Of a DNA stretch of 64,000 bases, positions 11,973 through 61,800 are shown piece by piece. The position numbers were made by a program, and so were the translations under genes. Where the stretch lies: NCBI GenBank assembly GCA_947462335.1, contig OX381714.1, positions 52,869,800 through 52,933,799 on the forward strand, read 5' to 3'. Numbering within the stretch: the first letter of the stretch is position 1; each line of letters starts with the position of its first letter. Source of the DNA: Harmothoe impar (taxonomy: Eukaryota; Annelida; Polychaeta; Phyllodocida; Polynoidae). The notes beneath the pieces are model-generated. The model did no database searches and had not been told where the DNA came from. It saw only the letters and a list, made by a program, of their open reading frames with translations.

Positions 11973-13169
11973 ACACATCACGGTTGTACACCCCCCCCCT
12001 CCACGGCCACACACACACACACCATCACACACCACCACCAACCTGCCCCCATCAAGCTGTCATGATGAGCCCGGGGATGAGCCGGGGGATGAGCCCCAAC
12101 GCTAGGTGAGCAGCTCACCAGGGGCAGCTTCCTATGTGTGAGTAGCACACACTAGAGCAAGCAGCACACAGTAGAGCGGGCAGCACACAGCAGGACACTG
12201 AGGTACATGTTTTTCCCTCCTCCCACGTTTTCTGATCTGATTATTAGTATGTAGTATGGTAAGGTAATCCAGACCTCATGAACATGGCGGGCTGACGTAT
12301 GCACATAGAGTGAAGGATTACTTATGTCCCCTGCACCTGAGGTATATATATGTATTTCTGCAGTATAACTGTAAATTAAAGGAACATGCAGAGACATTAA
12401 GCATTTAGCACAAGTAAAGTGCAGCATATGTTTACTATGCTTGAAACTTTTCCTATGAGTACAAGAGACTTACCGGTACTCTGATAATAAATGGTGGGAC
12501 TGCCTGCCTTCATTTCATACATATACCAAGACGAACTCTATTCTAGCGAGCCTACTATGGGCACAGAGCTTCTACTAAAATAAGATTTGTAAAATATAAT
12601 ACTGGATTTCAACCTAGTAGTAAATACATACCGTAACGACATGTCACTCTTTTTCCTTTATGGTTTTGTACCGGTACGCACGATGTGTATGTATGTATGT
12701 GTATGTGTATGTGTGTATGGATGCACTTGTGTATGTATGTACGTGTGTACGTTTGACGTTTGATAGTTGTATGTATGTATGAATGTATGTATACAGAATG
12801 CATCAAGTAAAGTAAAATATTATTGGCCAAACCTACTAACATCTAATCATTTTCATATAGACTCTGCTCTGGAGTTACACTGTATAAACATGTATACTAA
12901 AACTCGACTAACAGCGATATGTCCTCAACATATCTTATGATTTATGTACTTATATGCTTTGTCATCTATTAATTCCCGTATTCCCACGATGTTTTTTCAT
13001 GCTTATTCTGGAAAATATGGGAAAAATATTGCATCTTACAGGCAGCACTAGATGCACAAGCCTGATATATGAGGAAATATGTAACGATGGGGGGAGGTGT
13101 GAGTGCAGGGTGGGTCTACTGTTCAGTAGTGGGAGGGGGACCCTAGGTCCAAGCCTTTGTCGGTTCTAT
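11973..13169. other. Intron sequence with simple repeats, no gene seen
   Basis: C- and CA-rich runs (about 11985-12045), a degenerate GATGAGCC triplet near 12063 and a TGTATGTA/GTGTATG microsatellite at 12685-12790. Small ORFs here translate microsatellite or have no motif. Confidence 0.6.
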
Positions 13170-16100
13170 ACAACTTGACCTTAAGGGGGTTAAAGGCCAA
13201 CATTTTGTACATTTAAATGCCAGGAGCATTTACCATGACATTGGTACATTGAGAGATTATATAGTAGATTCAGACATTGATTGTGTCACTATTTCTGAAA
13301 CATGGCTGTCCGAGGAGGTGTCCAATAATCATGTGCTAATTGAGGGTTATTCCATGTCAAGGCTGGACAGACAGGTTGACAAGGATGCTGGGGGATTGCT
13401 AACTTATGTAAAATATGGTCTGACTTCAAGCTCTGAATTATCAATGCATAATGTAAGCAATCCAGACCTTGAAGTTATTTGGACAGTTATTTCTAAGGCT
13501 AATATGCGAAGGATTGTGATAGGAAATGTCTATAGACCCCCTAATGGTAATGTGGTGAATGCATTGGATAAGTTGAAAAAATCTTTTAATGATATTGACT
13601 CGGATAAATATCCAGAGATATTCATGCTGGGGGATTTTAATATTGATTTCCTTAATGCTAATCCTAACCAGGATAAATTAAGAAACATAATGGCAGGTTT
13701 GGGAGCAAGGCAACTAATTAAAGATATCACTCGATATAATCCAAACAGGGAAGGAAAGGACTCCATCTTGGATCTGGTTGTTACAAACTGTGAACATATT
13801 AGCTCCTCTGGAGCATGCTCTGTGGGTGGTATAAGTGATCACGAAATGATTTTTGTCACCAGAAAGCACATCCCTGTGCAAAAGGTGCCTTTGTCTTTTA
13901 TAGGACGCAGTTATAGGCTATATAACAAAGAGCAGTTCATAAATAGTCTTAAGAACCTAGACTGGAATAATTTCTGGATATCTACCTCTCCTGAAGTAGC
14001 ATGGGATATGTTTATTGCCGCAATAAACCATGTCTTAGACATAAACTGTAAAATGAAACAATTTAATTTTAAACAGCAGAAAAAACCCTGGTTAGATGCA
14101 AATTTAATGGCACTTATAAAGGATAAAAATGATGCAATAAAACGTTTTAAAAAATCAGGCACCCAAGATGATTACAATATTAAACAATACCTTCAGAATC
14201 TTTCGAAAAAACAAAACAAAATTGCGGAAGAAGAATACCACAATAAAGAAATAGATGATAATGTAAATAACCCAAAAGAATACTGGAAAGCCATAAACAA
14301 TATAGTAAACCCCAAGCCAAAAAACATTTCCTTCAGTCTATTACACCATGATACAAATCTGCCTGTAAATAATGAAGATACAGCCAATTATATAAATCAA
14401 TATTTTGCAAATATCGGCCCTAAATTAGCAGAAAACCTTTCAGAACCATGGACATATAAACCTGAACCCTACATAGAGCATTTCTCTTTTACCCCTGTCA
14501 CAGAACTAGAGTGTATAAAAATAATTAGGAAAATAAAAAATAAAAAACCCTCAGGCATATTGGGAGTGAAAACTAGTGTCCTAAAAGATGCAATGCTGGG
14601 TCTGTCGTCACATATCATGTTTATAATGAATCTTGCTATAGAAAGCTGTGTCTTCCCAGATAGCTGGAAGAAAGCAGTAGTTACTCCCCTCCCCAAGGGG
14701 GGGGACCCCTCAGACGTCAATAATCTCAGGCCAATATCAATATTACCCTTACCATCAAAAATCCTTGAAAAAATTTTACACAAACAAATTATGGAATATT
14801 TAACGGAATTCAAAATTCTCACTGAAAATCAAGATGGTTTTAGGCCTTTCAGATCTACAATTCACAGCCTCACCAAATTCACTAATAATATTTATAGAGA
14901 ATCAAATAATGATAATGGAACAACAGCAATATTTTTGGATTTCAGAAAAGCTTTTGATACAATAAATCACACCATACTAAAAAATAAATTATCCAAATTA
15001 GGCTTCAAAATTAACTCCATAAATTTAATAGTAAATTATCTCACAAATCGGATTCAAACTACCAAAGCAAATGGCACTATATCAGACCCACATCCTGTCT
15101 CCTGCGGAGTACCTCAGGGGTCAGTATTGGGACCACTACTCTTTATTGTTTATATTAACGACTTAGGCTCAGTCCTACAGGATATGCTGTGTCAACATTA
15201 TGCTGACGATACCGTTATCTATCTCCCAAATGGTGAGCATAGCATACAGGTAGAAGAAACTATTAATCAGGATTTAGCTAAGGTAGATACATGGTGTAAG
15301 GCAAATAAACTCTCATTAAATGCTAAAAAAACTAGAATTATGAATCTGGGGACTGACGCTTTGTTGAAACAGATGCCAAAAATAGCCATAAAATTAGATA
15401 ATACTCCACTAACCAAGGCATACACCTATAGGTATTTAGGCATCACTATAGACACTAATTTAAATTTTAAGGCACATGTTAAAGGGGTAAACAGAAATAT
15501 AAATCACAAAACACATATGTTCAGGAGGTATAGAAGAAAAATTAGCACAGCAGCTAGTGAAAAGGTTCTCAAGCACATGATACTCCCTAGCCTTGATTAT
15601 GGTGACACTCTCTATGATGTAGCTCCAAAAACCATTTTGGAAAACCTTCAAACAGCCTTTAACAGGGGTCTAAAGACCACATATAATAAGGAGGAATTCC
15701 ATGAAGCCCCTTTATTATCTAAGCTTAAGGTTAATACCCTTGCTGATAGAAGAGAGATGCATCTAAGTCAATCAGCTTTTAATCTTTCAAAGGATGACAG
15801 CTGGATTGATACCAGAGACATCAGGACAAGAGCCCATGATGGCAAACTATTAATCATAAAAAGGCCAAAAAACCCCTTCTATAGGAAAAGTCTAGAATTC
15901 AGATTACCATCGCTCTGGAACTCCTTTAAAGAGGATACAAGAAATATTATAGAAAATGTAAAATTCCAGAGCTGGAACAAGAAAAGGTTCAAGGACCGTT
16001 TGGGCCCCCCCCCCCATAAAACTGTAAAATTGGTATTTTTGTTTCTCTTCACTCACACCCCCTACCCCATCACTCAAGCTTAGGAAGAAATTTCTCATAA

Positions 16101-23323: not shown

Positions 23324-24068
23324 TCATGCCATAGCACCAACAATTGGTTCACGAAGATTAGATAACATGAAGCAGATGTAAGTGATTCTTCCTGCCAACT
23401 GTCGCTTTGATGCTGGTAATTCCCTCTTCAGAATTTTGTAGGTTTTTGCCAGGCCGATCACCCTTTCGACATGGATGCGCTTAGATGCGATCCTTCTGTC
23501 GCGAACAACGTCAATGGCGTCAAGTTGAGACTTCCCCTTCAGCATGCGTGGGGTGTTAACATGCACATTTTTGTTGGCAAAGAGATCCTGAACCATGAGA
23601 CCCCTGTCTGCCATGATGCTGTCACCGCTCTCAAACATGTCCTCCATGCAAAGAGGTGAGCGTTCAACAATCTGGCGGTCTGTTGCGGCACCACCATACG
23701 TCTCACTTATAGAGGTTACCATACCGGCTGGACTTATTCCTACTAGTGTCTTTGCTGTATTCCGGTTTTTGTAGGATGAAAAGGTAGCACTTTGCAAAGC
23801 AACATCTGATGGCTTCATGATAGGTATCTCAGTTGCATCAAGAATAACGCGGGTGTTTGGAAATTGCTTTTTAAAGTTTCGGGGCATAGTGTCCACAATC
23901 GTCTGCTTTGATGGCCAGATGTCCATCTCCTTGAACTCATCGTACATGAAGTTAAGCCAGGTTTTGATTATTTTTCCTACTGTAGTTGTCCCGATCTGAG
24001 TATAGTGAAAATCTCTTTCCGGACGCGATTTCCATTGAAATCGCGTCATGAGCATAAGAGAATTGGCT
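23324..24068 (-). CDS. DDE transposase (DDE_Tnp_4 / IS5-related type), main exon
   Basis: Cuts and joins transposon ends. The C-terminal 243 codons from ATG 24055 are intact. A helix-turn-helix-like start (FHYTQIGTTTVGKIIKTWL) leads into the catalytic core with the three acidic positions in family context: Asp of VILDATEIPI, Asp of SIMADRGLMVQDL and Glu of HVERVIGLAKTY. It ends TYICFMLSNLREPI, usual for this family. Two possible starts: ATG at 24055, or a splice acceptor (minus strand, ...AAATAAG) giving an exon from about 24068 that adds NSL before the Met. Most relatives are longer at the N-terminus, so I expect a 5' exon that I could not identify; the internal inverted duplication (24000-24312 with 25908-26222) may have displaced it. 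Faces the YqaJ gene. Confidence 0.88.
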
Positions 24069-26228: not shown

Positions 26229-26800
26229 ATTGAAAGATACTGATGCGATTATTCGAGAGAGAAATATAGCCAGGTGTTTCAAGTTATTGCACACATAGGA
26301 AATGACCACAAAAGTTGGGTCATTTTGATAAGTGTCCAATAGAACTGTATAGGTTATCACCATTTTTAAATATATGGTTGTGTTTTGATCAGTAATCTGA
26401 TCCAGGTGACATTTCAAATGTTGGACTTTTCCAATGTTTGCCTCATTTCCGACTGAGTTTGTAGTCGTCCTGCCCCTACAGTTTAAGAGATATCTTAAAT
26501 GTTACATGTTGTGTCCCCTGTCCACATATAGAATATTTCATTGCTATAGTTGTGGGTTCCCTGTTGCAATAGTTTACACATGGGACACTCGTGAAAATGG
26601 ACCAGCTTTAAGATCTGCTTTTGATGAGCCCACTACCCTTCACTAATATGGTTGCCACATCCAAACCGCTTGGAATTTGGAGTCCATATTTACAGATGTT
26701 ACTAAAAAGATATTGGGCCATCATCCCACTCAATTAGGATGAATTATGAGATGGTCACCCGGGGAAATCCTCCATTTCTGGTCGATTATGAATGGACTCA
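26229..26800 (-). repeat. Right terminal inverted repeat of the 16.5-kb transposon
   Basis: Inverted partner of 10287-10910, ending in ATGGACTCA before LINE-A resumes with GCC at 26801. Short ORFs here (for example 26434-26646) are chance frames. Confidence 0.92.
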
Positions 26801-27667
26801 GCCAGTGTCAAGCTCAATGCCGAACATATAGCTGTCACAACCAGGATAGTAGGTCAACATGTCCTCTCTTTTGACAAGATGGAGGAGGCTGAAAAGGCTA
26901 AAACAGTGTTAATTGAGGGGGTGTCTGACCCTGTAGGTAGCGAAAATCTCAGGGCACTAATTGATGACCTGTTCGGTGAGCTCGAGTTAGGATATGGCAA
27001 CGAAAAGGTTGACACCATTTTTCGGCTCGGCAGGGTATCTAAAGACAGGCCAGACTTCAGACGACCGATCGTAGTGAAGCTCTCCCATAGAGGCACGAAG
27101 GGGGATATCTTCCGGAATGTCAGGAAACTGCAAGGCAAAAAAGACTGGGGTGGTATAAGTATCATGGACCAGCTGAACGAGATCGAATGCAGGCAATACA
27201 ACGACCTGAGATCCATCTTCTTTCTGGCCAAAAGGTCGGGTGTAAAGAGGCTCAAACTCAGACAGAGAGCTCTGATCATCGATGGATACACATCAGTACA
27301 AAACAGATGTCTCAAATATTGTCATAAAGTTCCTATTCTAACGTCAACTAACTTTATACACAAGAAAGCAATCCTACCCAAGCTGGTCGACCGCAGAATA
27401 TACCATGCACAATTGTACGGGTTCAAACTCTCAAAGAAGATTGACTCATTGAACATCAGGCCAAGACACACTCGCGAGGCTCAAGCGCCATTGCTGAAAT
27501 ACTCTAATATTATCCTGACTGCCTATGAAAAATCCATGGAAGTTTTCGTTGCTCAAACATGGAATGAACTTGACAAGAAATACCGCAATATTGTAAATAT
27601 CTCTGATTTTAAATTAGAAATGAAGAAATTGTTGAGTGACAAAATTGCTTCTTACATAGACCCTTAA
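26801..27667 (+). pseudogene. LINE-A: ORF1 C-terminal half fused in frame to the ORF2 C-terminus
   Basis: The first about 165 codons are the RNA-binding half of a LINE ORF1: KTVLIEGVSD, DTIFRLGRVS, FRRPIVVKL, NVRKLQGKKDWGGISI and RSIFFLAKRSGVKRLKLRQ align by eye with KVVIIEG, AVQFAERVG, AIRFVFKG, FLRGKPDWYRVSI and RSMFFLCKKKG of LINE-B ORF1. After RALIIDGY the reading switches to QNRCLKYCHKVPIL and RRIYHAQLYGFKLSKK, which match the C-terminal end of LINE ORF2 (QNRCLKTCFGLHML in LINE-B). So NADAR-equivalent sequence, the ORF1-ORF2 spacer, the endonuclease and the RT are deleted, yet the join keeps 289 codons open. No catalytic domain remains. Confidence 0.8.
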
Positions 27668-37116: not shown

Positions 37117-40078
37117 GGATCAAGTGTTTGGTAGGCTGAGCTGCTCCTTAGTAAGCACCAAGTGAGCACTCCAGTCCTGTAGGATGAGAGGTAATTGACC
37201 ATTTAGGTAACCTTTTTGTCTGGCTTTAAAACAGTTCTTTTCTTCTGTATTCCTAAGGTGAGGGGGGAGTGCATTCCATGTGTCTATAGATTTGTAGGAA
37301 GGATTTTTTGGAATGTCTTGTCAGCCTTGGATTTAGCTGCTTTATCAGTGGGCCATCAGCAGCTCTAGTGTTCCTGTTTAGGATTAGGTCAATTCCATCT
37401 TGTTTGACTAATATATAACATAAATTGCTTTGCAAGTATTTTAGCCGTACATCAATCTTGGTAATTCTAACTCTTCAGTGAATTGATATTTTCCCTTTAC
37501 TGTTGGTATATATGCAGGGATTTTTTGGAAAAATCCCTGCAGCTATACCAACAGTAAAGGGAAAATATCAATTTAAGATTGATCCAACCTCTAACCTAAA
37601 ACTATATTAATAGTTTTGACCAGAAAATCAATTCTCCTACCCAGTAGGTTGCACCTAGACAGCGCTAGCTCTCTCCCTCTGAACTGACAAGTCTAACAGC
37701 CAGACAGGTTAAAATTGGGTCAGTGCAGTGAAAGACACATTTTATTTCTCTAATAAATAAAAAGTCAGATTTACCCTGTGGATCTCAAAAATTCACTCTA
37801 GGCTAACAATAATGTCTACCTGATGAATCTTTGAATAAGATGAAACATCCTGATGTCAACCACTCACATATTCTATGCTGAAGTATATTGGCCTGAATTA
37901 TTATTTATTCAAAAAAGAACAAAATATCTTTTCTCTAATTTTTAGAAATAGATGTCTCTATCTTGAGATAGTCCAAATCCCCCAAAATCCATAATTATGT
38001 GTATTATAAACCATTCATAAATTGAGTATGTATGGTAATTTATTTTGACACATTGAGGCACTTTGATGGAGTATAGACAGACAATGTTCAACCCCTTGAA
38101 ACCCACCATTATTTAGTTTAGACATGGCTATGATTTCCCACATGTACATTTCAGCTGACCCAAGTAAGGCCCTTAGTAGCATGAACAACCACTCATGTCA
38201 TATCTTAATCTGGTGCAGAAATCTATAGACTAGAATCAACTTGTGGGAGGATCAATGATTTCAGTACTGTGATAGAGGCATTCTGGGTGAACAGTGGTCG
38301 TAATTGTCTCAGGATCTAGATTTTAGAGTTCATTGCTTTATTGCTCTCCACTAGTTGCTCTTGGAAAGTGAGTGTCTTGTGGAGAATTATGCGAAGATAT
38401 TTATATGATTGAACATTATCTAGGGTGGTACGTTCTAACATTATTTCAGGAAAGTGATAGTTGGTCCTTTCAGAAAAGTAAAGTGTCTTGGTTTTGCCTA
38501 CATTTATGGTGAGGCATTAGAAGTCATACCATGTTTTTATCAGTGACATATCAGATTCCAGTGTTTGGCCAACAAAGCCTGGGTCCTGGTGACTAAATGT
38601 TATGACTGTATCATCAGCATACAGTGTGACTTTAGATTGGGTTCGAAGATAGCGTATGTCATTTACAAACAAGATGAAGAGCAGTGGACCCAGTATAGAT
38701 CCCTGTGGTACACCAAACCTAGTGTCCTGCCAATCAGAGAATTTATCATTGACGAAGGTTCTTAGTTGTCTGTTTCCTAAATAATTCTCAAACCAGTGTA
38801 TTACAGAGTCGTGGAGGCCAACGTTTGCAAACTTACGTCCTAATTTACGGTGGTTGATGGTATCAAAGGCTTTTTTGAAGTCTATAACTATAGCACCGAG
38901 TGTGTGGCTAGCAATTTGGTTGTGTACTAGCCGTTCTATTTTCCCTGGTGTGGGTAGGAGTGAGATAGGCCTCAAGTTACCGATTGATTTAGGTTTTACT
39001 GATTTAGGGATAGGCACTACTAGAGATTTTTTTCCAGGCAGTGGGGAAGACCCAAGTAGCCAATTGCAATGAGAGGTTCAAAAGATGTACATTTAAAAGA
39101 AAACATCACCCTAATTTGACGTCATAGGCTACAGAAGATAAGCCTGCTGTGCTGCCTTCTAATACATCATCCTTCACTAAATGAGGCAGAATATTATAGT
39201 ACCAAGACCATAGATTGAAGCCATCATAAAAGAAGGGTGGTGTTTTCTTTTAAGGCCAGCAACCCATCCTTAAGCACCCGGGAGGAGAGAGCAGCAAGCC
39301 TTGATGATTTGTATATGTTAATTTTGTGAATTTCCTTATCTAGTCTGTCTTGCCTAATGTTAGAGAATCGTATTTACTCCCCCGGGTGAATGGAAGAATC
39401 AGGGGGGGGGGGGGGGGGAGGGTATGTAGTTTGGATCAACTATGATTTTCTGAGCCAGGTTGGCTCCCACATTGCCGAAAAAGAAATTTATTTTGTTGGG
39501 AAGTTCATTATCAAGTATGGTGACACCATTGTCATTTTGCAACCTCAATTTTACATTCTTGTCTTCTTGAGTGCTAGACTGTCAATTAATTTCCAGAATT
39601 TGGTAGGATCATTCTTACTCTCCTCAATTTTGTTCAAGTAATATTTTCCCTTAGCCTTTAGATTCTCTCTGTTTGAGATATTTCTAAGCGAATTACCTGC
39701 GGCTTTGTCCCTAGGTTTCTTTGTTTTCTTGGCCAGTTTGAGGGCTTCATCGCTTTCATGGAAGACTTCTAGAAGTTCACGGTTAATCAAAGGATATTTT
39801 TCTTTAGTGAATTTGAATGTACACTCTGGACAGTGACCATAACCAATAGTTTCTAATTTATCATACATTATATTGCATGCCTTTGAAGCATCTAGGGTCC
39901 TATAAAACTCATCCCATTTTTCTCGGATGCACTCTCTCTGGTATGCAACTTTTGAATTGTTCTTATATACTCTACCAGTGAATTCTACATTAACCTTTTC
40001 AGGTTTGGGTTTTTTGCTATCTACATAGATTGGAACATGATCAGAGATATTTATGTCAAGAACCCCAGAAGCCATGAT
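37117..40078 (-). pseudogene. LINE-C: decayed minus-strand CR1/L2-like LINE
   Basis: Three ORF2 parts lie in order on the minus strand. 40075-39551: end of the endonuclease (INISDHVPIYVDSKK) and the linker to RT (NDPTKFWKLIDSL). 39017-38517: RT with NLRPISLLPTPGKIERLVH, VIDFKKAFDTINH, FGVPQGSILGPLLFILFVND and an intact VTLYADDTVI, but with the fingers region between SH and LGAIVID deleted. 37435-37117: C-terminal end (NRNTRAADGPL...), with a frameshift before SIDTWNALPPHLRN. Further codons lie at about 38280-38470 (LERTTLDNVQSYKYL). Stops and shifts separate the parts, so it is dead. The 5' end, including most of the endonuclease and any ORF1, is missing. Confidence 0.85.
37451..37583. repeat. 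Near-perfect hairpin inside LINE-C
   Basis: TTGATATTTTCCCTTTACTG / TTGGTATA on the left pairs with TATACCAA / CAGTAAAGGGAAAATATCAA on the right, with TGCAGGGATTTTT against AAAAATCCCTGCA at the tip, giving arms of about 43 bp with a tiny loop. ATCAATCTT (37451) and AAGATTGAT (37575) extend the symmetry outward. Confidence 0.9.
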
Positions 40079-43800: not shown

Positions 43801-46800
43801 CAAATGTAAATTATTTGAAAGGTAATTGTCTTGTGAATTTGCTGATATGAGATGTTTACATATGTATCTATTAGAGAGTTATGACCAATCTACAAAATCC
43901 AATGTAAACAAAGCTTTATTATGAAAATTCACCTCACCACATGTGTCTATAGTTATGACGGCGACCGGAGAAATGTGAGTGTGTCTCCCTTTTCTACCAG
44001 GCTGTGAGGACACTTTCTATGGCTATTCCAACACCACTCTGCAGAGGTCCAAGGCAGCCGAGGGGCACAGCTCAGACGAGGTTGTCTATGGTGTGACATC
44101 AGATGTCTGTAAAACACTGTGCATCAACCGACATGAGGCTCAGTGTAACGGTATTCTGTATGATGCCAGACAGCTGGTCTGTACCCTGACCAACTCCCTT
44201 ATTACATCCTGGGATGTAGACTTGGTGCGCCAGAACGGCACTGACTACCTCCGACGTGGCCGATGTCCAAGTATGTAGTTTCATCTTAACCATCACCTAC
44301 CCTTAAACCTAAGTTAATGCAGATGTAGGTTGGTTGTGTGGTCGTTGTATGGTGGACATGAACGGATAAGGGTAATTTACAGCTGTTTGATGGCCCATAC
44401 CAAATATAGAACATGCCCAGCTAACAATTTTTGTTATTCTATATCAAAATAGCATTTTTAATGTTATATGATGTTTTACCACATTAAGGAGCCATAGAGA
44501 ACATTTATATAACTTTGTACAATGTTGTGCCCAGCAAACAAAACAAGTTATATGACATTTCAGAACATTTCGCCATGGCTTCTTAGTATGGCCAAATATG
44601 TAATGTTAAAAAAGCTATTTTCAGGCAAAATAATTCATTTTTGTTAGCTGGGTGACAGGTACTGCATTAAATATTCCTATGTTCATACGCTGGTATCTAG
44701 GTGGATGACGCCAGCATGTGATGGTCAAAGTGCCACCTGGAGGGGGGGTTTAGCATTCCTTGCATAAAACATGTATCAATGGGTCAATATGACTCAACAG
44801 CGATTAATATAATTGGTTGTTTGCAGATTATGTTGACATGCGTTGTTCCTTTGAGCTTGACATGTGTGACCTGAGGCAATTATACGATGGATGGAGTCGT
44901 GTAGCTGCATCAGTTCATTTTGGATCTACTCAAAAAGGTATGCAATCCCCCCCCCCCCCCGCCTGCTCCACCTATTTGGTGTACATAATTTTTTTAACAA
45001 TTTATAATAAGTTGGTTGACGAGGCTCAAGGGAACTGATCTAAACTATATTAATGTGACCAATAAGATCAATGGCCAATGATATCCACCGAATATTGTGG
45101 TCCATTGTCACTCCTTAGCTTCAATGGTATCCCATGTGATGATAATTGGTGTTTCAGAGTCTTTATTGTTGCGTTTGACGATGCATCTTTCAGCTTGTCA
45201 ACCTCAATGAACTTTGAGAAGTAATTGACAGTTAGAAGCGTTTCCCCTTGAACTCAAATAGATTAGTTCCAATTTCTTCCCATGGTAAATTCTGTGTTGG
45301 TGTCGGCTTTAGCCTCTCTTTTGGTTGCTTGTTCTGATGCTCATTGCATGGCACAAAATCTGACACAAGATCTTCAATTTGTGACGTTATCCCTGGCCAA
45401 TAGAGTCCCTCTCGCTCTCTCTTTGCATTTCACGATTCCCTGATGACTCTCATGGACTTGCTCCATCATGCCTCTTCTCATACTGGGTGGTACTACTATC
45501 ATCGTCTACTGTTTTACGCTGAAATTCCTTATATCTTTTGGGCGAGACTGCTACAAAATCAATCATGTTGATTGGTATCATCTCTATGTCTTCCTGCGTT
45601 GTTGACAAATTTTCTCTGCTCGGAATATGCTTTCCCAGCACAAGTATCACTTTAAGGTGATAGTGTTGCAGTTTGAGCATCATACTCTGTAATCTCATTG
45701 GTGCTGACAACAATGGTTTGGAGAATATGGCTTGCAATGGTCTGTGGTCACTTTCTATAACCACTTCCTTTCCGAATGCATAATGATGGAATTTCTTGCA
45801 TGCATGTACAATTGCTAGCGTCTCCTTCTCTATTTGTGCAGATCTTCGTTCCGTGTCTGTTAGACCTCTTGAAGTGTATGCTGTAGGCTTCTTGACATGG
45901 TAAAAAGCTAACACTTGTTGTTTCGGTGGCCCATGCTGAACTGGTCTTATAGTAGGACCTATTTTAAGACTCACAATACCTGGTAGTGCGCTTGTTGACA
46001 ATTCCACCTCTGGGTAGTCTTCTTGTATACTACTGAATCATTCCCAGCTCTTCACAATATTGCCCTGACAACAGAGTGCACTGTTCTATGTCAATGACAT
46101 AGAATTCCCCATCAACTCTCATGGATTTAAAATCCACCGGCACTGTCACCATTCTTTTGACTGCTATTTTGTGCTTCATGTATGATCGAAACCTCTGCTT
46201 TTTAGCTATCAGCTTTGGTTTGGGTTCTAAGGAGTTGTATAGGTGTACTGGCATCAAAGATCGTTTCTCTCCTGTGTCAAGCTGGATCTTGATTTTCTTT
46301 CCGTCAATTTTCACTGACTCCAACCACTTGTCTTCACATGTTATTGTATTAATCTGGACTTCATTTTATTACACTTTATGCAAGTTCTACTTTGTGCTGG
46401 GCAATATCTATGATCCTTGTTGTAGCCACATTTTACACTGATCCTCCTCCCCTTTCTTGTCTTTTCGCTCTCTGTAGCTCGACTTTTTGGACACTCTGTG
46501 GGATCTCTTCTCAGTTTTCCAGTCTCGTCTTGAATTCTTGTCTGATTTCCAGTCTCGTCCGGAATTCTTGTCTGATTTCCCATATTTTTGATATCCCGCA
46601 GCATGAATCTTTGAGTCTTCTTCTTCTCCTCCTATCACTGACAGGGACTCTCTGGAGGCCTCATCATCTTAGCCGACCTTAATTGCCATAGCTAAATCTA
46701 GGTCATCTCCTTTTTCCAAACACTTCACTTGAACATCATGGTGTCTTGACCTCAGGACTATACCAACTCTTACCATACGGTCTTCCATGTTTCCATGGAC

Positions 46801-49800: not shown

Positions 49801-52800
49801 ACAAAACATACCACTGTCACAATGTACCAGTCGAAATGTATTAGGGTGGTTGGAATGTACCCCTATATTGGTCGTAATGTAACATTTTGTTGGTCAAAAT
49901 GTACCAGACATTTACAAGCCATGCATGAAATGCAAACAGTGTGTAGTCTTACAAATAGCTTGCCTGTAGATGTAGATTATATCATTGCATGCATGATGGA
50001 CAATGGCTTGCTTTCTAAAATATATACATCTTTATTTTTTGTGAAAGACTTTAGACAAAAAATACATGACGGACATTGACACTGCATTGAGTGAGTCTCG
50101 TGCATTAGGCGTGATCATGAGACTCACACAGTATTCCCTGAGAGTCCCTGAGGAAATCTTTTTGAATTCCATGTCTGCATTTGCTCTGCATTTGATTTCT
50201 GCATGTGATGTATATTGACACATTACTCCACCTGCTTGGCATCTGTTGTGGTGTTGTCAAAAGATACCTATATTCCTCACTGTTAGATTGCAGTCAGGTG
50301 CTGCAAATCCGACTACATAATCTGGCCACTGTATAGGAATGGTGGGCAAAGCTGTACCCAAAAATAGGGGGCCGGGGGGGGGGGATCATGGACCTGAATG
50401 TCACAATCCCTTATCCTACATGTGATCGTCCACCACTCCCCTCGCCCCCCCCCCCCCCCCACCCGACTGACGAAAAGCCATCCACTGGTTGGGGTTAGGT
50501 GAGAGAATGCGCACTCACACATCCCACTCTCTCACCAAGCCATCTGCCACCAGCTATGTGTACAGGGTAGGGATCGATGGGGGGGGGGGGGGAAGTTAAC
50601 ACATTTCTGTTTTTCCCCTCAATTTGTCAGAGAAGCCCTGCGCAATTCCAGAACTGTTATGCCATGTGGGCATGGAATACCGTGATAGATGAGCCTTCAA
50701 AAACTGACACCAGGTTAAAGTGATATTTGTGGTTTATTCCATCTTATTACATGGATAGTGACCACCTGCGGTCCTCTGTTGCAGCACCTTATATAGTGGT
50801 CCCGCAAGTGGGGTGGCTAGTGACGTCACAGGTGTGGTATATGGTACATGGATCTTGATTGGATAATCATCTTAATACTAATATGTCAGATGTTACATGA
50901 TTGGTTGATACGGTACGATGGCGGCAACTGGTTGAGACGTGTCAGACCGAGCTCCCACCAAATATAGGATTACCTGTAGTCAAACTAACTTAGGACAGAC
51001 AAATTCAACGTGAAAGAGACCATAAAGGTTGTGTGTATCACAGTTGCACACTTACAACAGGAATTATGTCTCGAAGGCCTAAGAAAAACAAGGACGATCT
51101 TCTGCCAGAAAATGCCTCCCCGGCTGAAGTCATTTTGGCTGTCAACTCGCTCGGACACCGAGTGACTGCAAATGAGACTGCGACAGCGGGCATATTGTCA
51201 ACCCTAGAGGCAATCAACAAGGCGTTGGACACTATAAATAATACTGCCACCATTAATGCGGCTACTTTCATTTCAATCCACGATAAATTCAACGAAACCA
51301 AGTCTTCGCTGAAAACGACGGAGGAAACCATCCGCCAACATGGATTGATGGCCATTGCCCAAACCCGGGTATTGAACGAGCACCAGAGCCGCTTTGAACT
51401 GGCCGACAAGGAAGAGCGAAAAAAGGTGGTAATTATCGAGGGCTACAAAGAAAAACGAGATGAGGATTTAAAAGCTATTGTTGGTAAGCTTTTTAATGAT
51501 ACTGGAGTAAACTTCAACACTGACGCCGTTCAATTTGCCGAGCGGGTGGGAAACTACCAGCCGGCTGCTACACCAAACCAAGATGGCGCCGCCCGTGATG
51601 TAAACAAAAGAGAGAGGCACCGAGCGATACGGTTTGTCTTCAAGGGTCCTGACCATAAGCAACTTCTTATGAAAGCACTCAAATTCTTGAGAGGGAAACC
51701 CGACTGGTACAGGGTATCCATAGGGGATGAACTTGATGCCAGAGAGCGACGACAATTCATAGACCTTAGATCTATGTTCTTCTTGTGTAAAAAAAAAGGG
51801 ATACGAAGCTCGCCTACGCCAGCGTTCAGTCATCATAAACAACAGGCCTTTCTCTCATGCCCAGCTATACAGACTACCCTTTGCTGACCTCAACATGGAA
51901 ATGGCCACTGAAGCCGAGACACCGGATGGACTCATGTTCAGATCCCCCCACCACAGACTATCAAACCTCTACCCATGCCGCATACAAGAGGGTGACCTGG
52001 TCTTCAACTCAGTCGAACAAGCGTTCCAACACAAAAAAGCAGCTGAATGTGGCACTCCCCTGCAGCAGAAGATGATACTGGATCTCTCAGACCCATATGA
52101 CATAATGGAGGCAGGCAAGAAAATTCGGGACACAAAAGAATGGGCCAAGGAAGCTGAAAATGAACTATATAAGTACAATCTGATTAAATTCACTGATCCG
52201 GAGATGAAGGACTACCTGCTTAGCACCGAAGATCTGTACCTATATGAGGCCTCCTTCAGCAAAATATGGGGAGTCTGCATGCACCTTGGACAGGCGGAAG
52301 ACTGTACTAGTGACACAACCCAGGGGGCAAACCTGCATGGCAGAAACTTAGAACGGATCAGACACGAGCTCAGCGCCGACGATGACCCTCCTGAAGAGGA
52401 AGGGGAGGGGGAACAAGAACAAGAACCTGCAAATGGCGATGGGGATGCAGGAGAACGCCAAAGATAATTCTGAACTCTGGTCATAAGACAGTAACATATT
52501 ATACATGTACCGGTATTTTATATATCCTATAGTCTATGACATATTATATGAAAATGTGTGTACTATTCTTTATCCTCAGTGTGATCTCACCATAAATTAA
52601 TTAATTTCTGGCATAAATTTAATTTTTTGTTACATGAACTGTTTGAGAACACGGACACACGTGATGTGGTGTTTATGGTTGTAAACTTGAGGTCTTCATA
52701 TCAGACTGTGTATAAATGTATACGGTATATACTACTGTGATTAACTATTGTGATAAATTTAATTTGATGCTGCACACACTGATCATGACTAGGTGTACAC

Positions 52801-55800
52801 GCGATGAAATGTTTATGAATTTATGTGAAGTTCATGAAATGCACGGATGTAAAATTGAAGTCCCAAAGATGAGATTATGCTTTACTTGTATAAACAACTG
52901 GGCTGAGGTGTCTACATCAGGCTTTGTCATTTACGTATGAATCAACAATAATTGTCTCGATTCTAATTTGATGTAACATAAACTGATTGTGCCAATATGT
53001 ACATGTATTGCAAAGTTTATGAAATTTACGGTATGAAAATTAAACACTGTTTAATCTAGAGATTACGTCAATGTCCTTATTACTGTTAATTTTGGTGGTG
53101 AGCATGGGCTAATCTTCTTAGCCACATGTTAGTAGTAGTATGGGTGGCCACAAGAGCCGAGGCCTGTACTGGGGGGAAGGGGGTATTTTTGGGTTATTGT
53201 TTGTATACCTTCATAAAAATCATATTCTCATGATCACATGTATTACTCTTAGCGGTAACAGCTGCGCCTGACTTTAAAAGGGGGTTCTCTATAGTGCACT
53301 TAAACGCCAGATCGATAAGAAATAAAATAAGCAATCTAAAGGTAGAATTGAGTAACATTGATATAGATATAATATTATTTTCTGAAACCTGGCTAAACGA
53401 TGAGGACGATGATTCATTATACACCTTTCCAAGATATAGTTTGTTCAGGCATGACCGAGTGAGTGTGTATAGAGGAGGAGGCTTATGTGCTCATGTAGAC
53501 GAGAGCATTTCTTGTTCTGCTCAGAAATTTAGTCATTTAAATAGAATGAATGAAAACATCGAAGTTCAGTGGTTATTATCTGTCAAGGGCAGCTTCAAAA
53601 AATCATTAATATGTAATGTTTACAGACCTCCCAGTGGATCTTTACTTGAATTTTGTAACACTATGAAGGCGTTGCTACTCCAAATAGACATGCTGAATAC
53701 ATGTGACCTGTTTATTATTGGTGATTTTAATGTCCATGCACTCAGCGACTCTAGAGAGAAAGACATGTTATATTCTACACTGTACGATTTTCATATGAAA
53801 CAGCTTATTAATGAAATTACCACAACTTCAGGAACCAACAAATGCATAGATTTAATATTCACAAATTGTTATGAAGTTTCGTCCAGTGGGCTATTAAATA
53901 TACACCTATCAGACCATCTACCTGTTTTTGCAGTTAAAGAAAAAGTTCATGTAAAACTTTCCTATAGAAAATTTACCGGTAGGTCTTATAAAAACTTTGA
54001 CATGAAAAAATATCTGGCGAGCGTTGAGGCATGTGACTGGTCACTTTTTAATGAAAGCGACGACCCCGAATTATGTTGGGATATTTTTGAGAACATGCTA
54101 AAACGCATGCTTGACGTCTGTTGTCCTGTTAGAGAATTTAAAGTGGTCGACAAATCTGATCCCTGGATGACTAATTATCTTATTGAGCGCATCACTGATA
54201 AAAATAATGTTTTACGAGAGGCTCGCCATAGCACTTCTATATTGTCTTGGAGAATTGCAAGAGACCTTAGAAATACTGTTAATAGTGAAATTGATGTAGC
54301 CAAAAAGTCTTATTACAAAGATCTCTGTGACGCTAATGCTAAGGACTCAAAGAAATTTTGGGCCTTATTGAAGGAGGTTTTACCCTCAAGGTGTGGGGGT
54401 GGTAGTTCTATTAATCTGATGGAAAATGGTGAACCTGTTAACACAGATCATGTCTGTTCACATATTAACGAATTCTTTGCCAATATTGGCTCCACACTGG
54501 CGGAAGCACATCAGCTGGAATGGGAATTTAGAGGAGACAGATGCGACGTAGAACTAGATGAATTTGAATTTTCGGACGACCAAATTATTAAATGTGTTAG
54601 CAATTTAGATACTTCAAAATCTTCTGCCATTGATTACTTACCAACTAATATTTTCAAACAAGCTGTGTTAAATAATCCCTCCAGGTTTATTAAAATAATA
54701 AATTTGATCGTATCCACAAATATTATACCCCTGTCGTGGAAGATAGCTACTGTGACTCCGCTCCCTAAAAGTGGTGATCTAACTGACGTCAGCAATTATA
54801 GACCTATAAGTGTACTCCCAGTCCCGGGGAAGGTGCTTGAACGTCTGATACACGATTCTCTGTCCGAACACCTTGATGTAAATAATATCTTGTCTGACCG
54901 TCAGGGTGGATACCAGAAAGGAAAGTCTACGATGGACTCTATCTCTAATTTTCTTGATGACATATTGTTACAAAGAAATAATGGATGTATTACCTTAGCA
55001 GCCTTTATAGATATCAAAAAGGCCTTTGATAGTGTTAATTATGTAATTCTTCTAAAAAAACTGGAAATGTACGGTATCCGCAACCGACCTTTAACGCTGA
55101 TAGAAAATTATCTGTCAAGGAGGCAGCAGTGCACGGTGGCAAACAACAAACGTTCTGTCAACCTCCCCCTCACCTGTGGTGTACCCCAAGGTTCAATTTT
55201 AGGTCCTTTATTCTTTTTAATTTACATTAATGACTGCATTTCGGCCCTTGACACACATAAAACAATGCTTTATGCTTACGACTCAGTACTTTATGTCTCA
55301 GGGAAAAATTTCCAAGTACTTCAAGATAGTTTAACTCTAGCTTTAGCATCGTTTTACGACTGGTCCTCTATAAATAAATTGACTATGAATGAAAATAAGA
55401 CAAAAATAATGACATTTGCTTCTTCAAAAACCCTGGCTAAATTGCCGAAACCCAAAATTTCACTAAACAATAAAACTTTAAAATCCGTCATTTCATACAA
55501 ATACCTTGGGGTCACCGTTGACGAAGAGCTGAATTTTTGCCAACACACCAGACTGCTAATAAAGAGTGTTAACTTTAAGTCTCTATTAATGTACATGGTA
55601 AAAGACTACATGTCTGCAAAGATTTTAAGGAAAGTTTATGTTACATATTTATTACCTATCATTGATTATGCCGACATTTTGTATACTAATACTAACTCAG
55701 ATCTGTTGGCTGAGTTGCAGAGATGCCAAAACAGATGTCTGAAAACATGCTTCGGCCTGCATATGTTAACTCCGACCATTGAGGTTCATAGAGCTGCCCA

Positions 55801-58800
55801 GCTACCCACCCTGTCAGAGCGTAGAGATTACCATGTAAAATTATATGCTTTTAAAAGGTCAAAGCAGGAAAAATATGTGAAGAAACCACTAAGAGCTACA
55901 AGACTCAATATAAATACTTTATTATACTACCCTATTATCCATTGTGCTGCATTTGAAAAGTCTCCTATGGTAGTTTGTGCACAAAGATGGAACTCCCTCA
56001 CAGCACCTATTAGAGGTACTGATGATTTCTCATCCTTCAAAAGCTCAGCCCGTCAGGCTTTAAATGACACCATTCCGGCCAAGCTAGGTGATTGAGAATG
56101 CATTGATGTTGACAGTCAGCAATATTGGGTTTATAAATATATGTATTTAAATGTACAGCACTCAACTTAAAGTACAACGTATACACCGTCCATCTTGCCA
56201 AACATACCTTTATGTCAAATACCAAATTTATGCCTGTAAATATCCGTGGTATGGCTCATACAACAGTTCTACTGACGAGCCTATCACTACTTTGTTGCTT
56301 GACGCATCCTTTTATGTATCATATCACCAGATATTTTGTACAATTTTCCTAAGTATACAATATTCATGATACATATCCACATACTGGTATCATCAAACTC
56401 GTCAAACTCTTGTAAACTTTCAAGCAATAAAGTTTAAATTTGTTCAAAAAATAGTGGTCAGTGATGGTCAGTGGGAGCGTGCACCACCTGGTGGCAGCTT
56501 TCCCAGCCGTCCTCCAGGGGTACAGGCGCCAGCTGCTGTTATGTTTCTATAATCTGACGCCGGTGCGTTAACACCTGTTTTCTACCTGGGGTATTATCTG
56601 AATAGAGGCTCTACAAATGACTCATGAATGATAATCAAAAAAAATAAATTATTATTATTATCAATTCATAATCATACAATATACAGTTGGGGTAAAAGGA
56701 AAGAGGGGGTTTGCAGTGTGACAGCCATTTAGGAATTCCGGAACTGTGCAAAAGTAAGGATGCGCAGTTCCGCAATTGTGCCAGTTCTGATTTTGCGCCT
56801 GACATATACATGTAATAAATACAATATGGTCATTATACTCAAATTATGGATCTAATTGACAGAGGTGAACTGCAAGCAGCATCTTGGAGGCTTAGACTAC
56901 ATGGGTAACGTCTCTACTACCAAGAGTGGACGGCAGTGTCGGAGCTGGGTGGATGCTGTTCACTCTGTACCAGCTCTTAACGGGCTCTTCAATAAAGAGA
57001 CGCTATCCCACTCACAGAATTTCTGCCGGAACCCTGGTCCCCACCCTAATGACCACGTAGCCTCAGAACCCTGGTGCTTCTGGGGCTTGGAAGTGAATCA
57101 ATATGAGGAGTGTGACATCCCCTTTTGTGGTAGGTTTTTAATTAGACTAAAGACTGATGAATAGGGAAAGTGTTTCATTTTTGCAATTATAGACAAGTGC
57201 AGAAAATGGGGTCTTCAAGCTGTGGTTCTATTTAATGATGAAGGTTGGAAGTAAAGGTCTTATCATTTATAAAGCAAAACAAGTAATGCCTTCTCAATTG
57301 TGTTTTAATTTACAATGCCACTTCATGTGTGACTGATAACCTTAGCCCTGTTTTATAATCCCAGAATGTGCTCCTCATGAGTTCACATGTGACAATCAAA
57401 GGTGTATGTCCAAGGACCGTTTGTGTGATGGAGGAGATGATTTTGGAGACATGTCAGATGAGGTGGCGCCCTGCAGTGAGTACTGTAAACATAGACATTT
57501 TTGCTTGTGTATATTTTTGTGAATTTGCTATGAAGGACAATTTCATGTGTATCTTAATTTGCGAGTTTTGCAAAATGGTAGTTGTATGGCTACACAGGAT
57601 AAATTTTCGCTCTGCACATATTTTCGCGAAGGATCAGCGAAACCCACAAACATATGTACAGCAAGAAAATATCCCTGTTTACAGTATGCATAACTATTGC
57701 TGCTTTTAGAGAAGGTTCCTCCAATACTAATCATAGAGAACACAGTTCTAAGTGAGTGATTCAATTGCATTCCTATACTAAGGCAGCCTGAATGTCTGCG
57801 AAAATAAGTGTCTTTAAGGAACACTTTAAGTGGCATTAAGTTCAGAGAGCCATGGAAATGTGAGGGACTTTAAGTGACATTTACTCATATTAAATATGCT
57901 TAAAGTATAACTTAAGTATGTTTAATTTACTTAAATGCAAACGTTAATGAAGTGTAACGTTAAAGTAACTGAGTAAGAAAAGTGATATATATTGCTAAAC
58001 TTGTACAGGAGAGGCACTTATGCAAATGAGCATGTCTGAAGCAATAAAAAAAATGTTGTCACATTGTACATGAGGCTGACCATGAAACTATTCAACAGTA
58101 GCCGAGCGCTCCCTCCGCTGTGACTTTGAGTCACAGTTCATGTGTGGCTACTACACAGATGGATCGTCAATACGCTGGCGTTTCGAGAACGCATCTACCA
58201 ACACTGGGCCTATCTTCACAAAGATATCCCCTCATGGTATGTGAAATATAACACTTATAATGCCTCGAGTTGTACAGAGGCTTTGCAGATATCGATGTCA
58301 TACTATAACAGGGGTAGCCATAATCATCACCTGGGAGCCAATGGCCTATAGTTTGGGCTCCGGGCCTGCAGTTTTTATCCAGAATCACCCTCCTAATATA
58401 TAATATGCCATTGGAAAGAGAAAACCGTGGTGTAGCTAGGCAGTTCGGTTATATTCTGATATATTCTCATGACAAATATTCATGTTTTTTTTCCAAAGAG
58501 AAAGTAAAATTGTCATTCTGGCCAGTAGATTTAGGTCCAGGCCCACAGATTTCTGAGGCTACGGGGCTGGGTGGCCCGTAATCCCATGACTGCCTTTAAC
58601 AGTGTTTAATGCCTGCTGTATACATAAAGATATAAGCCACAACCACACTTCCACCCTTTTCTCAATCTATCTCCCCATGTGACATCATTATGTAGCGTCA
58701 TTCCCAGTATTCCCTAAGAGTCCCTGAGGAAATCTTTTTGAATTCCATGTCTGCATTTGCTCTGCATTTGATTTCTGCATGTGATGTATATTGACACATT

Positions 58801-61800
58801 ACTCCACCTGCTTGGCATCTGTTGTGGTGTTGTCAAAAGATACCTATATTCCTCACTGTTAGATTGTCCCATTCTCCATGCAACCATGCTGCCTCTTCCA
58901 CTCTGCCCTTTCCTACCTTACTACTCATGTTACATTGGTGCCAAAACAAAACAGACAAGTTAGCCAAACTTCATTCAATGTTATGTTACAATTTGGAGGA
59001 ATGAAGATTATGGTTGGGGGGATTAATGCTGACATGTCTCGTTTTAGCCATGTAGGGCTCACATACATGCAGTTTGATATGGTAAGCAGTCATTGAATTG
59101 GCCATAATACAGTAATGCTAAAATATGTATTGTAAATTCCCGTATAACCCGGCCGCACCCTGTCTTTGAGGGAATCATATAACCTGCACTGGAGTCTGAG
59201 TGGCCCCAGAGAAAAAACGTTGAATAACCCATACCTAATGTTTGGGGAAATGCCAATCACGCCATCTCACCCTCTCAAAGCACCCTAAAGTAAGTAGGTG
59301 TGAGGGCCAAATGCCATCTACCTGGTAAGTAGGGGGAAGGGGCAGGTGTGACTTTCCTAACTGGGGGAGGGGACGGCTGGAGTATGGGGGGGCAGGTATG
59401 AGCACCAAATATGTGCTAACAGGGGTAAAGGGGCAGGTGTACTGCATTACTAGACCATTTTTTGAGTCATCTCTGAAATAAAAAATGTCAAAATCCCTCG
59501 TATAAGTCCTCAGGTCCTCAGACATATTGCCAATCAAACATGAATGGTCCAGTTTAGTGCCCCAAAATGGTACTGATGAGCCATTTATCATCCCTGGGCT
59601 CATGACTTCAATCCTTCTTGTTCCTGCCACTGGGGCCACAGGAGGCTATGTGTATGTGGACCTGGACGGTTATTATCATGAACGCCGGGAGGTTGGGTTC
59701 ATCTCCCCTGTTTTCACAAACAGTACACAAGGCTGCTTCAGCTTCATTTACCACATCAACAATGACAAATATGGAGTCTTGTCCCTCGGTGTCAAAACAC
59801 AACTGGGCATAACTCAGCTGTGGCAGTCTGGGTCTGAATCAGCGTCAGACGACTGGAGAGAGGTGAGTGTGAGACTGGACCAGCCTCAACTAGACATGGA
59901 GGGAGGCTTCCACTTTGTGTTTATTGCAACACGTAACTACCCTACGAATGTACGCATTGCTGTAGACAGGACGAGGTTCATACCAGGCTTCTCTGCAGAC
60001 TGTGCGAAAGGTAACTGTGTTCTACTTTGGGTAATTTGTTAATATCCACATTCAATCAAGCTCTGCATACGTCAATGTGATCTGGCTTAAAGTTGATTAA
60101 ATCTAATGGTTTATGCAGTTAAGAACAATTTCTATTTTAGATTAGATAGATCTATAGTGCACAGATCAGAGATATCGCAAAATGCTCAAATATGCATTGA
60201 TGTAATTTTTTCTCCGCCATAACTAAAGATGACTACATGTAGGTAACCTAATTATGTCCCATATCTTGAATTTTAAAGCTCAATGCTCCTTATTAGTGGA
60301 GATATATGGAGTATTTTTTTTCGCCCATCCTTCAAGCTTGCGAGTGATAAAAGGGGGTCCCGTAAAAAATATTTTCTTGTGCCTTCTCATGACCTACTTA
60401 ACTACCGTATTGAATTGAAGCACTGAATTTCAGTTGTGTCAAATGTTTGTGTATCTGCAGATCTTCAGGAGAAACACTCACCCTTTACCCCCCACCAAAA
60501 AGACACACCATCGTGGAAAAGTGACAACACGGTCTATCCGACTCCAGATCTATATGGTAAGGAGTGATACATAGCCATATCCAAGTGCATGATTTCCCTG
60601 GCAATCGAATACTTATTTCTAACCTCAGACGCTTCCTTATATAGCTAAACATTCTACAGTCTTTCATTCATTATGTTTGAAATCAATTATCCAGTAATTC
60701 AGTTTAAAAAAGTATATATTTACAGCTCTCATGGACAAGCAAACAAACAAACAAATTCCTGCCCAAAAAGACCCACCAGCCCAGAAGAGTGACTATAAGG
60801 ACTATCCTACTTTGGATTTAGATGGTGAGGAATGATACTGTAATCGTGTTTTATTTTGCACTGTACATATTTTTGCAGATTATGCAGATTTTAAAATCTG
60901 TGAATCCCTGTCCTTCATTAATATTTATACAGTATCAATGTAAAGTTAATTTTTGGAAATCACAAAATTGTATACCTGCATGAACATGTTCTTCAATGCA
61001 ATCAAATTAGAATTCTGTTTTCGAATTTAAAAAAATATAGTAATGCATTCTGGTGCATACTTAAAGCACTGAATAACAATTGTGTACTGGGAAGAAGACT
61101 AATTTTGGGTTTTATTAATAAAAACTGATTCTAAATTTCAAGTAGTATAACAGGCATCTCCTAAATTGTAACCATCAGGGGAGAGTATGCTCAGGTTCTT
61201 CAAGACAGCTGCCCATCAGAAGAAGGACTTCATTCATAGGTTAGTTTCAAATTGGTAAATAGCAACACTGCCTATATAAACTAAAAGAAAGAGAACCTCC
61301 GTGCTCCAGGCTGGTCGATCTGGAATGGGACCCGTGATACTGTCATCAGGTGGAAGACTGCCTGGACTTACAGTAAGTCTGGATAACACACCCAGCCTGT
61401 TATTCCAGGTCACTCAGCCTGGTACACAGGGTTGTATAGCTACAGCACTGTATTCTTTACCACAGCTTTTATATAATCATATTTGTGATTTTTATATGAT
61501 ATTTGCAGTAAATAAAGCCCCCTTTAGTATATAGATCAATAAATTATCTACCAATTTATAGATGCATTTAGTGCATAGTCCGTTGCATTTATGAGTAATT
61601 ACAAGTTTAAATCTGTATATTTTCTGGTTTGGGGCACATAGAGCATTGTATCTGCTTGGAGAAGGTGTGAAAGCCTGATGCCCCGCCTGCTACACCAGGC
61701 TCCCAGCCTAGTATACCAGCCTGCTGTGCTGGGAGAGTGTATAGGGGCGGCCTGAAAGCACAGGCTGGGTGGCCTGAAAGTACAGACTGCCTGTTCATGA

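Follow-up and report, generated by a model that had tools for sequence, protein, structure and literature searches.

A LINE family of Harmothoe impar with a NADAR domain at the end of its ORF1 protein

The genome of the polychaete Harmothoe impar (assembly GCA_947462335.1, 1.51 Gb) houses a LINE family in which, across many copies, a NADAR domain forms the end of the ORF1 protein, and sequence comparison of these copies supports strong purifying selection on the domain, with its catalytic positions kept. Here, we describe the element from one stretch of 64,000 nucleotides, hereafter the window (contig OX381714.1, positions 52,869,800 to 52,933,799, forward strand), together with its relatives, and weigh what a NADAR may do in an ORF1 protein.

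A NADAR in a LINE ORF1 protein is already in print, as a single sentence based on the authors' Repbase search states that, in the oyster Crassostrea gigas, several families of Tx1 LINEs seem to have one in ORF1 as well (PMC12477816, Genome Biol 2025 26:320); this was the sole report on NADAR in LINEs or retrotransposons among the matches listed from the open-licence literature. Like the oyster elements, which were compared by their description only, the family described here has a YbiA-family NADAR within a LINE ORF1 protein; unlike them, its ORF2 is not L1/Tx1-like. An earlier sequence-only reading of the window, which knew of no described LINE clade with this domain, is in part superseded by the oyster sentence. 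The same paper also places a NADAR in one Ectocarpus Gypsy lineage, likewise a retrotransposon with a YbiA-family NADAR, but an LTR element with the domain in Pol, whereas the window element is a LINE with the domain ending ORF1.

The element in the window and its copies

Between 51066 and 56095, the + strand of the window contains a two-ORF LINE. Its parts and the neighbouring features are as follows.

51066..51791, + strand: ORF1 first frame, N-terminal part with predicted coiled coil and L1-type RRM, and start of the C-terminal domain (CTD)
51790..51921, + strand: remainder of the ORF1 CTD, read in the NADAR frame
51922..52374, + strand: NADAR domain, YbiA type (Pfam)
52375..52467, + strand: acidic C-terminal tail and stop; relatives also have acidic tails
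52468..53233, + strand: spacer of 766 nt between the stop codon after NADAR and the point where the ORF2 frame opens
53234..56095, + strand: ORF2 frame, 953 aa, endonuclease and reverse transcriptase (Pfam)
55271..55282, + strand: reverse transcriptase catalytic motif, here YAYD
26792..27667, + strand: LINE relative that has lost its middle part, the RRM/CTD of ORF1 being joined directly to the ORF2 C-terminal end
13147-16083, + strand: second ORF2 frame, 978 aa, YADD, 32% identical to the NADAR-LINE ORF2
23324-24067, - strand: DDE transposase frame (PF13359)
38517-39077, - strand: reverse transcriptase fragment
45450-46037, - strand: RNase H frame of another retroelement
56856-57164, + strand: Kringle domain frame, just downstream of the LINE
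59506-60042, + strand: MAM domain frame, downstream of the LINE

As in a LINE, an ORF2 with both an endonuclease (PF14529, 8.8e-8) and a reverse transcriptase (PF00078, 4.7e-33, residues 511-762) lies behind ORF1 on the same strand. The first ORF1 frame (50994-51887, ATG at 51066) and the second (51763-52467), which runs from the end of the CTD through the NADAR into the acidic tail, are offset by one base, the shift falling near 51,790; what the sequence-only reading took for one frame (51066..52467) is thus two in this copy. The NADAR domain proper occupies 51922-52374, and the 826-bp spacer of that reading gives way to the 766 nt listed above, 826 being a count that fits the distance to the endonuclease start. 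Because of the frame shift, and because YAYD replaces the YADD or FADD retained in the 15 related frames examined (FADD in locus L186), the window copy is a dead fossil.

No in-frame ATG was found ahead of the endonuclease domain in the window ORF2 frames at 53234 and 13147, and no clear target-site duplication among the best 20 of 24 repeat families between 50400 and 56900. The deleted LINE at 26792-27667 is 31% identical to the NADAR-LINE over the ORF1 RRM/CTD and 41% over the ORF2 C-terminal end, and is devoid of NADAR, which the deletion could possibly have removed. Upstream of the second ORF2 frame, tblastn with the ORF1 of the NADAR-LINE gave no ORF1 match. The Kringle and MAM frames downstream of the LINE suggest an animal gene.

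Six protein relatives (P0001-P0006) were obtained from ENA contigs, three of which (P0001-P0003) hold the ORF1 CTD and the NADAR in a single frame, P0004-P0006 being shorter pieces; P0001 is 46% identical to the window ORF1-NADAR over 382 residues. The frame shift belongs to the window copy alone: residues 1-466 are uninterrupted in a 99% copy on the same contig (C12:8366258-8367655), while the genome scan finds the window itself as two pieces. For the passage from ORF1 to NADAR, a programmed frame shift was considered and rejected, as the 99% copy and P0001-P0003 are single-frame. IMG/VR scans with P0001 and with ORF2 gave no match and one with A1 two distant NADARs; a first scan of genome contigs gave no match.

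Within the same genome, a first look returned 3484 candidate places for NADAR, of which 150 were scored and 150 lay above the Pfam cut-off, and 3561 for a read-through ORF1-NADAR query, of which 91 were scored, the two larger figures being first-look candidate places, unlike the scored matches. Of the 91, 82 cover both ORF1 and NADAR, their match beginning no later than query residue 41 and extending at least to residue 430, and 69 of these 82 are without a stop. The sequence-only reading had held that its proposal would fall if the domain were present in this copy only, and had pointed to fused copies in the same genome as the place to look; there they are. The idea that a host NADAR exon merely adjoins, or was swept into, one LINE copy is rejected by these copies and is extremely improbable: stand-alone NADAR frames in the genome (L166-L169) speak for it, but most scored places span both parts, a branch with support 100/99 splits stand-alone from LINE-counted NADARs, and dN/dS is about 0.05.

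Ahead of the NADAR, ORF1 is tentatively predicted to have the type II, L1-type layout of coiled coil, RRM and CTD seen in human LINE-1 ORF1p, which is not known to have a NADAR. In a P0001-led ORF1 model, folded with 3 alignment rows to a mean pLDDT of 43.3, the ten best Foldseek matches are all human LINE-1 ORF1p, with large rmsd, and those from rank 11 include unrelated proteins, e.g. an aspartate kinase at 5e-4. No Pfam family but NADAR reaches its cut-off in this ORF1; PF02994 gave no match at E up to 5.

The NADAR domain and the selection acting on it

The sequence-only reading had called a LINE ORF1 with a C-terminal NADAR from motif pattern, and the Pfam search that it proposed confirms the call, with PF08719 matching residues 62-203 of frame 51763-52467 at E 6.6e-20 and 72.4 bits (cut-off 35.1). 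The predicted structure of the window NADAR has a YbiA-like fold; a PDB search with the frame as a single sequence found no NADAR match, while a profile search did.

In the structural work on NADARs, ADP-ribose is contacted by E43, K50 and E125, and changing the E. coli counterparts of these residues abolishes rescue from DarT1; E88A, at the E. coli counterpart of E43, nevertheless has only a minor effect in vitro (PMC11543638). The window NADAR aligns E (52015-52017), K (52036-52038) and E (52246-52248) with E43, K50 and E125 of Phytophthora nicotianae. Among the 28 NADARs counted as LINE, E43 is kept in 28 and E125 in 27 (P0003 has A there), the K50 position is K in 26 and R in 2, and W89 is W in all 28. 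Elsewhere the same rows vary: R or K occupies the R79 position in 10 only, with D in 11, W is present at the W133 position in 21 rows and G at the G78 position in 24, and the K75 position is M in the window and in P0001-P0004. Substrate binding of the LINE NADARs may differ from that of known enzymes because of this variation at R79, W133 and G78 and the change of K75 to M. Compared with the P. nicotianae NADAR (PDB 8bau) and E. coli YbiA (2b3w), which, unlike that of the window, stand outside any LINE ORF1, the window has M for K75 and K for R79. A K75 counterpart is required in E. coli for rescue from DarT1 (PMC11543638), and its loss in the window speaks against the hydrolase role proposed below.

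The E125 position is Asp in BC4488, His in the phage type and glutamate in the YbiA subfamily (PMC11543638, PMC11125620). By its glutamate the window NADAR falls in the YbiA subfamily; DarT1-associated NADAR antitoxins would have aspartate at E125 and lysine at K75, where the window has E and M. Of 43 positions that hardly vary among 45 bacterial/viral NADARs, the window NADAR differs at 20, a count inflated by the choice of those 45 by conserved motifs. Where non-LINE NADARs are conserved, window and P0001 share the residue at 33 of 41 positions, versus 44 of 110 elsewhere (Fisher 6.9e-6).

The comparison of dN/dS over NADAR codons that the sequence-only reading had suggested gave, for 10 copies of the window family (45 pairs), a pooled value of 0.049 for the NADAR and 0.065 for the rest of ORF1, at a pooled dS above 1.9, near saturation, with pairs of saturated dS given no ratio; all 19 pairs with usable dS have ratios below 1, the largest being 0.08 (NADAR) and 0.17 (rest). 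For the window NADAR, comparison with three 87% copies yields 0.049-0.057; the window against its 99% copy gives 0.78, a value resting on almost no changes. In another family, of 431 aa, 7 copies (21 pairs) give 0.116 for the NADAR and 0.108 for the rest, and L189-L191 gives 0.35. The copies compared come from best-scoring lists, 12 of them from stop-free entries, a choice that biases towards intact frames. Taken together, low dN/dS and kept catalytic positions argue that the NADAR is not neutral baggage.

A selected domain could still be a non- or weakly catalytic one, an accessory of ORF1p that binds nucleotide or RNA in chaperoning or packaging. The variation at several ligand-contact positions (R79, W133) would suit this, as would the place of the NADAR directly behind the CTD and the acidic tail after it in relatives; ORF1 domains are modular and reticulate in their history, and RRM, esterase and zinc-knuckle domains have been proposed to serve transcript binding (PMC4120745). 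Binding alone would not require E43 and E125 to be kept as they are, in 28 and 27 of 28 rows, and we consider such an accessory role unlikely.

Spread of NADAR among LINEs of the genome

Twenty of the 150 scored NADAR matches were taken as 9.9-kb loci, chosen non-randomly to spread frame lengths. Two are stand-alone NADAR frames (L174, L175), while in 18 the NADAR lies within a longer frame of 427-1268 aa, ending at most 70 residues from the frame end in 16 of the 18 (exceptions L188, L193). Sixteen of the 18 have an ORF2-like frame further along the same strand; within the 9.9-kb loci of L181 and L184 none was found. The ORF1 profile (window and P0001) matches 6 of the 18 longer frames, weakly (11-24 bits), the pre-NADAR part of the other 12 being called ORF1 solely from its position before ORF2. 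Profile comparison of this part with A1 is weak for the L176 type (probability 4, E 0.01) and moderate for the L1-like type (probability 44, E 2.4e-4), the alignment in each case staying in register as far as the border of the NADAR. A PDB search with A12 gave no match. Both frames are long and open in 8 of the 20 loci (L176, L177, L179, L182, L185, L186, L187, L193).

The window ORF2 matches human L1 ORF2 at 56.9 bits over residues 445-672 only, that is, in the reverse transcriptase alone, and L1/Tx1 membership of the window element was rejected on this ground, against 343.8 bits over 6-1170 for the ORF2 of L186, which belongs to the L1 superfamily. On the strength of the latter score L186 may be a Tx1-type element like the oyster ones. 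The ORF2 of L176 has an R2 protein as best match (51.6 bits), and none of its matches at 1e-5 or better is a chain named LINE-1. Identity of the window ORF2 is 28-32% to L176, L177, L179, L182, L185, L187, L190 and L193; it falls to 21% for the frame of L188 and to 18% for L186. By its ORF2, the window element probably belongs to the Jockey superfamily (CR1/L2/Jockey), a placement that we take its motif style to support; PF14529 outscores PF03372 in the window ORF2, but not in L176. With an L1-type ORF2 in L186 and non-L1 ORF2s in the window and L176, a NADAR in the frame before ORF2 is thus found in this single genome in two LINE groups that, as judged from ORF2 comparison, are distant from each other.

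Several loci have further frames:

L183:3123-4331, L192:5836-6978: between the NADAR frame and ORF2
L189:3999-4757, L190:3405-4199, L191:3981-4739: between the NADAR frame and ORF2
L181:6311-7875, L184:6538-7921: behind the NADAR frame, twice in tandem

Many of these extra frames match one another by BLASTP, and some, by eye, presumably resemble an SGNH-type esterase; Pfam found no family in the four of L181 and L184. The NADAR frames of L185, L187 and L193 reach 1057-1268 aa, with long pre-NADAR regions below every Pfam cut-off. L188 has a third arrangement, in which (L188:4192-8219) a NADAR in a 554-aa frame is followed by one in-frame stop, then the endonuclease, then a reverse transcriptase frame.

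In a tree of NADARs all 28 LINE-counted domains, for 13 of which ORF2 was unseen (L181, L184, L205-L207, L209-L213, P0001-P0003), lie on one side of the 100/99 branch. It includes 15 bacterial/viral rows thinned from the 45 picked by motif patterns and leaves out 15 near-copies, the too short P0004-P0006 and other eukaryotic NADARs. Three stand-alone NADAR frames within 27 kb (G000:C21:30057793-30084570) and one on C19 are the best four Pfam matches among those listed; in the tree they group with bacterial/viral NADARs, apart from the LINE ones.

A proposed role on LINE RNA

LINE ORF1 proteins bind the RNA of their own element, as is established for L1. Guanosine-base ADP-ribosylation of RNA is, among the hydrolase families tested, reversed only by NADARs (PMC11833690), the macrodomain and ARH enzymes tested showing no such reversal and NADARs no action on phosphate ends (PMC11833690; PMC11543638); the authors add that the edge of the most active NADAR may stem from nucleic-acid binding (PMC11833690). 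Guanine transferases known from animals include CARP-1 of clams and the pierisins (PMC11543638).

Because it joins a predicted RNA-binding protein to a domain type with guanosine-base activity, ORF1-NADAR is best read as an eraser on LINE RNA/cDNA. ORF1p would coat the LINE RNA via its predicted L1-type RRM, and the fused NADAR would thereby reach that RNA inside the ribonucleoprotein and act there as a guanosine-ADP-ribosyl hydrolase. This would reverse damage from host or foreign guanine ADP-ribosyltransferases which, left in place, would block translation or reverse transcription. We put the chances that the ORF1-NADAR of this LINE family, with its selected catalytic residues, strips ADP-ribose from guanines of its own RNA/cDNA, as predicted, at about even.

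The NADAR could instead counter other NAD-derived host immunity, acting on small ADP-ribose signals or on ADP-ribose attached to ORF proteins or insertion-site chromatin. The wide spread of NADAR in phages has been interpreted as a response to ADP-ribose derivatives of low molecular weight, and its presence in metazoan RNA viruses as one to host macromolecule ADP-ribosylation (PMC9503650); among the viral matches of the NADAR model are proteins of giant viruses and nidovirus-like ones. That the domain is fused to a predicted RNA-binding protein nevertheless suggests a nucleic-acid substrate, as do NADAR activities on guanosine bases and not phosphate ends (PMC11543638, PMC11833690), and we hold this alternative to be fairly unlikely.

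On the eraser reading, the NADAR would be an enzyme joining the known ORF1 add-on domains, PHD and esterase (PMC4120745). More broadly, and as a tentative proposal that we rather doubt than believe, LINEs would carry a nucleic-acid de-ADP-ribosylase as a counter-defence or RNA-repair module common to two superfamilies of LINEs and with candidate places in the thousands, which would imply that guanine ADP-ribosylation of RNA/cDNA is an anti-retrotransposon defence in animals. ORF1-NADAR LINEs hint that hosts may use ADP-ribose marks against jumping genes; a large selected set of LINEs with NADAR on ORF1 provides the LINE RNP as a natural substrate, together with a claim open to test, namely that hosts ADP-ribosylate transposon RNA/cDNA and that the element erases the mark.
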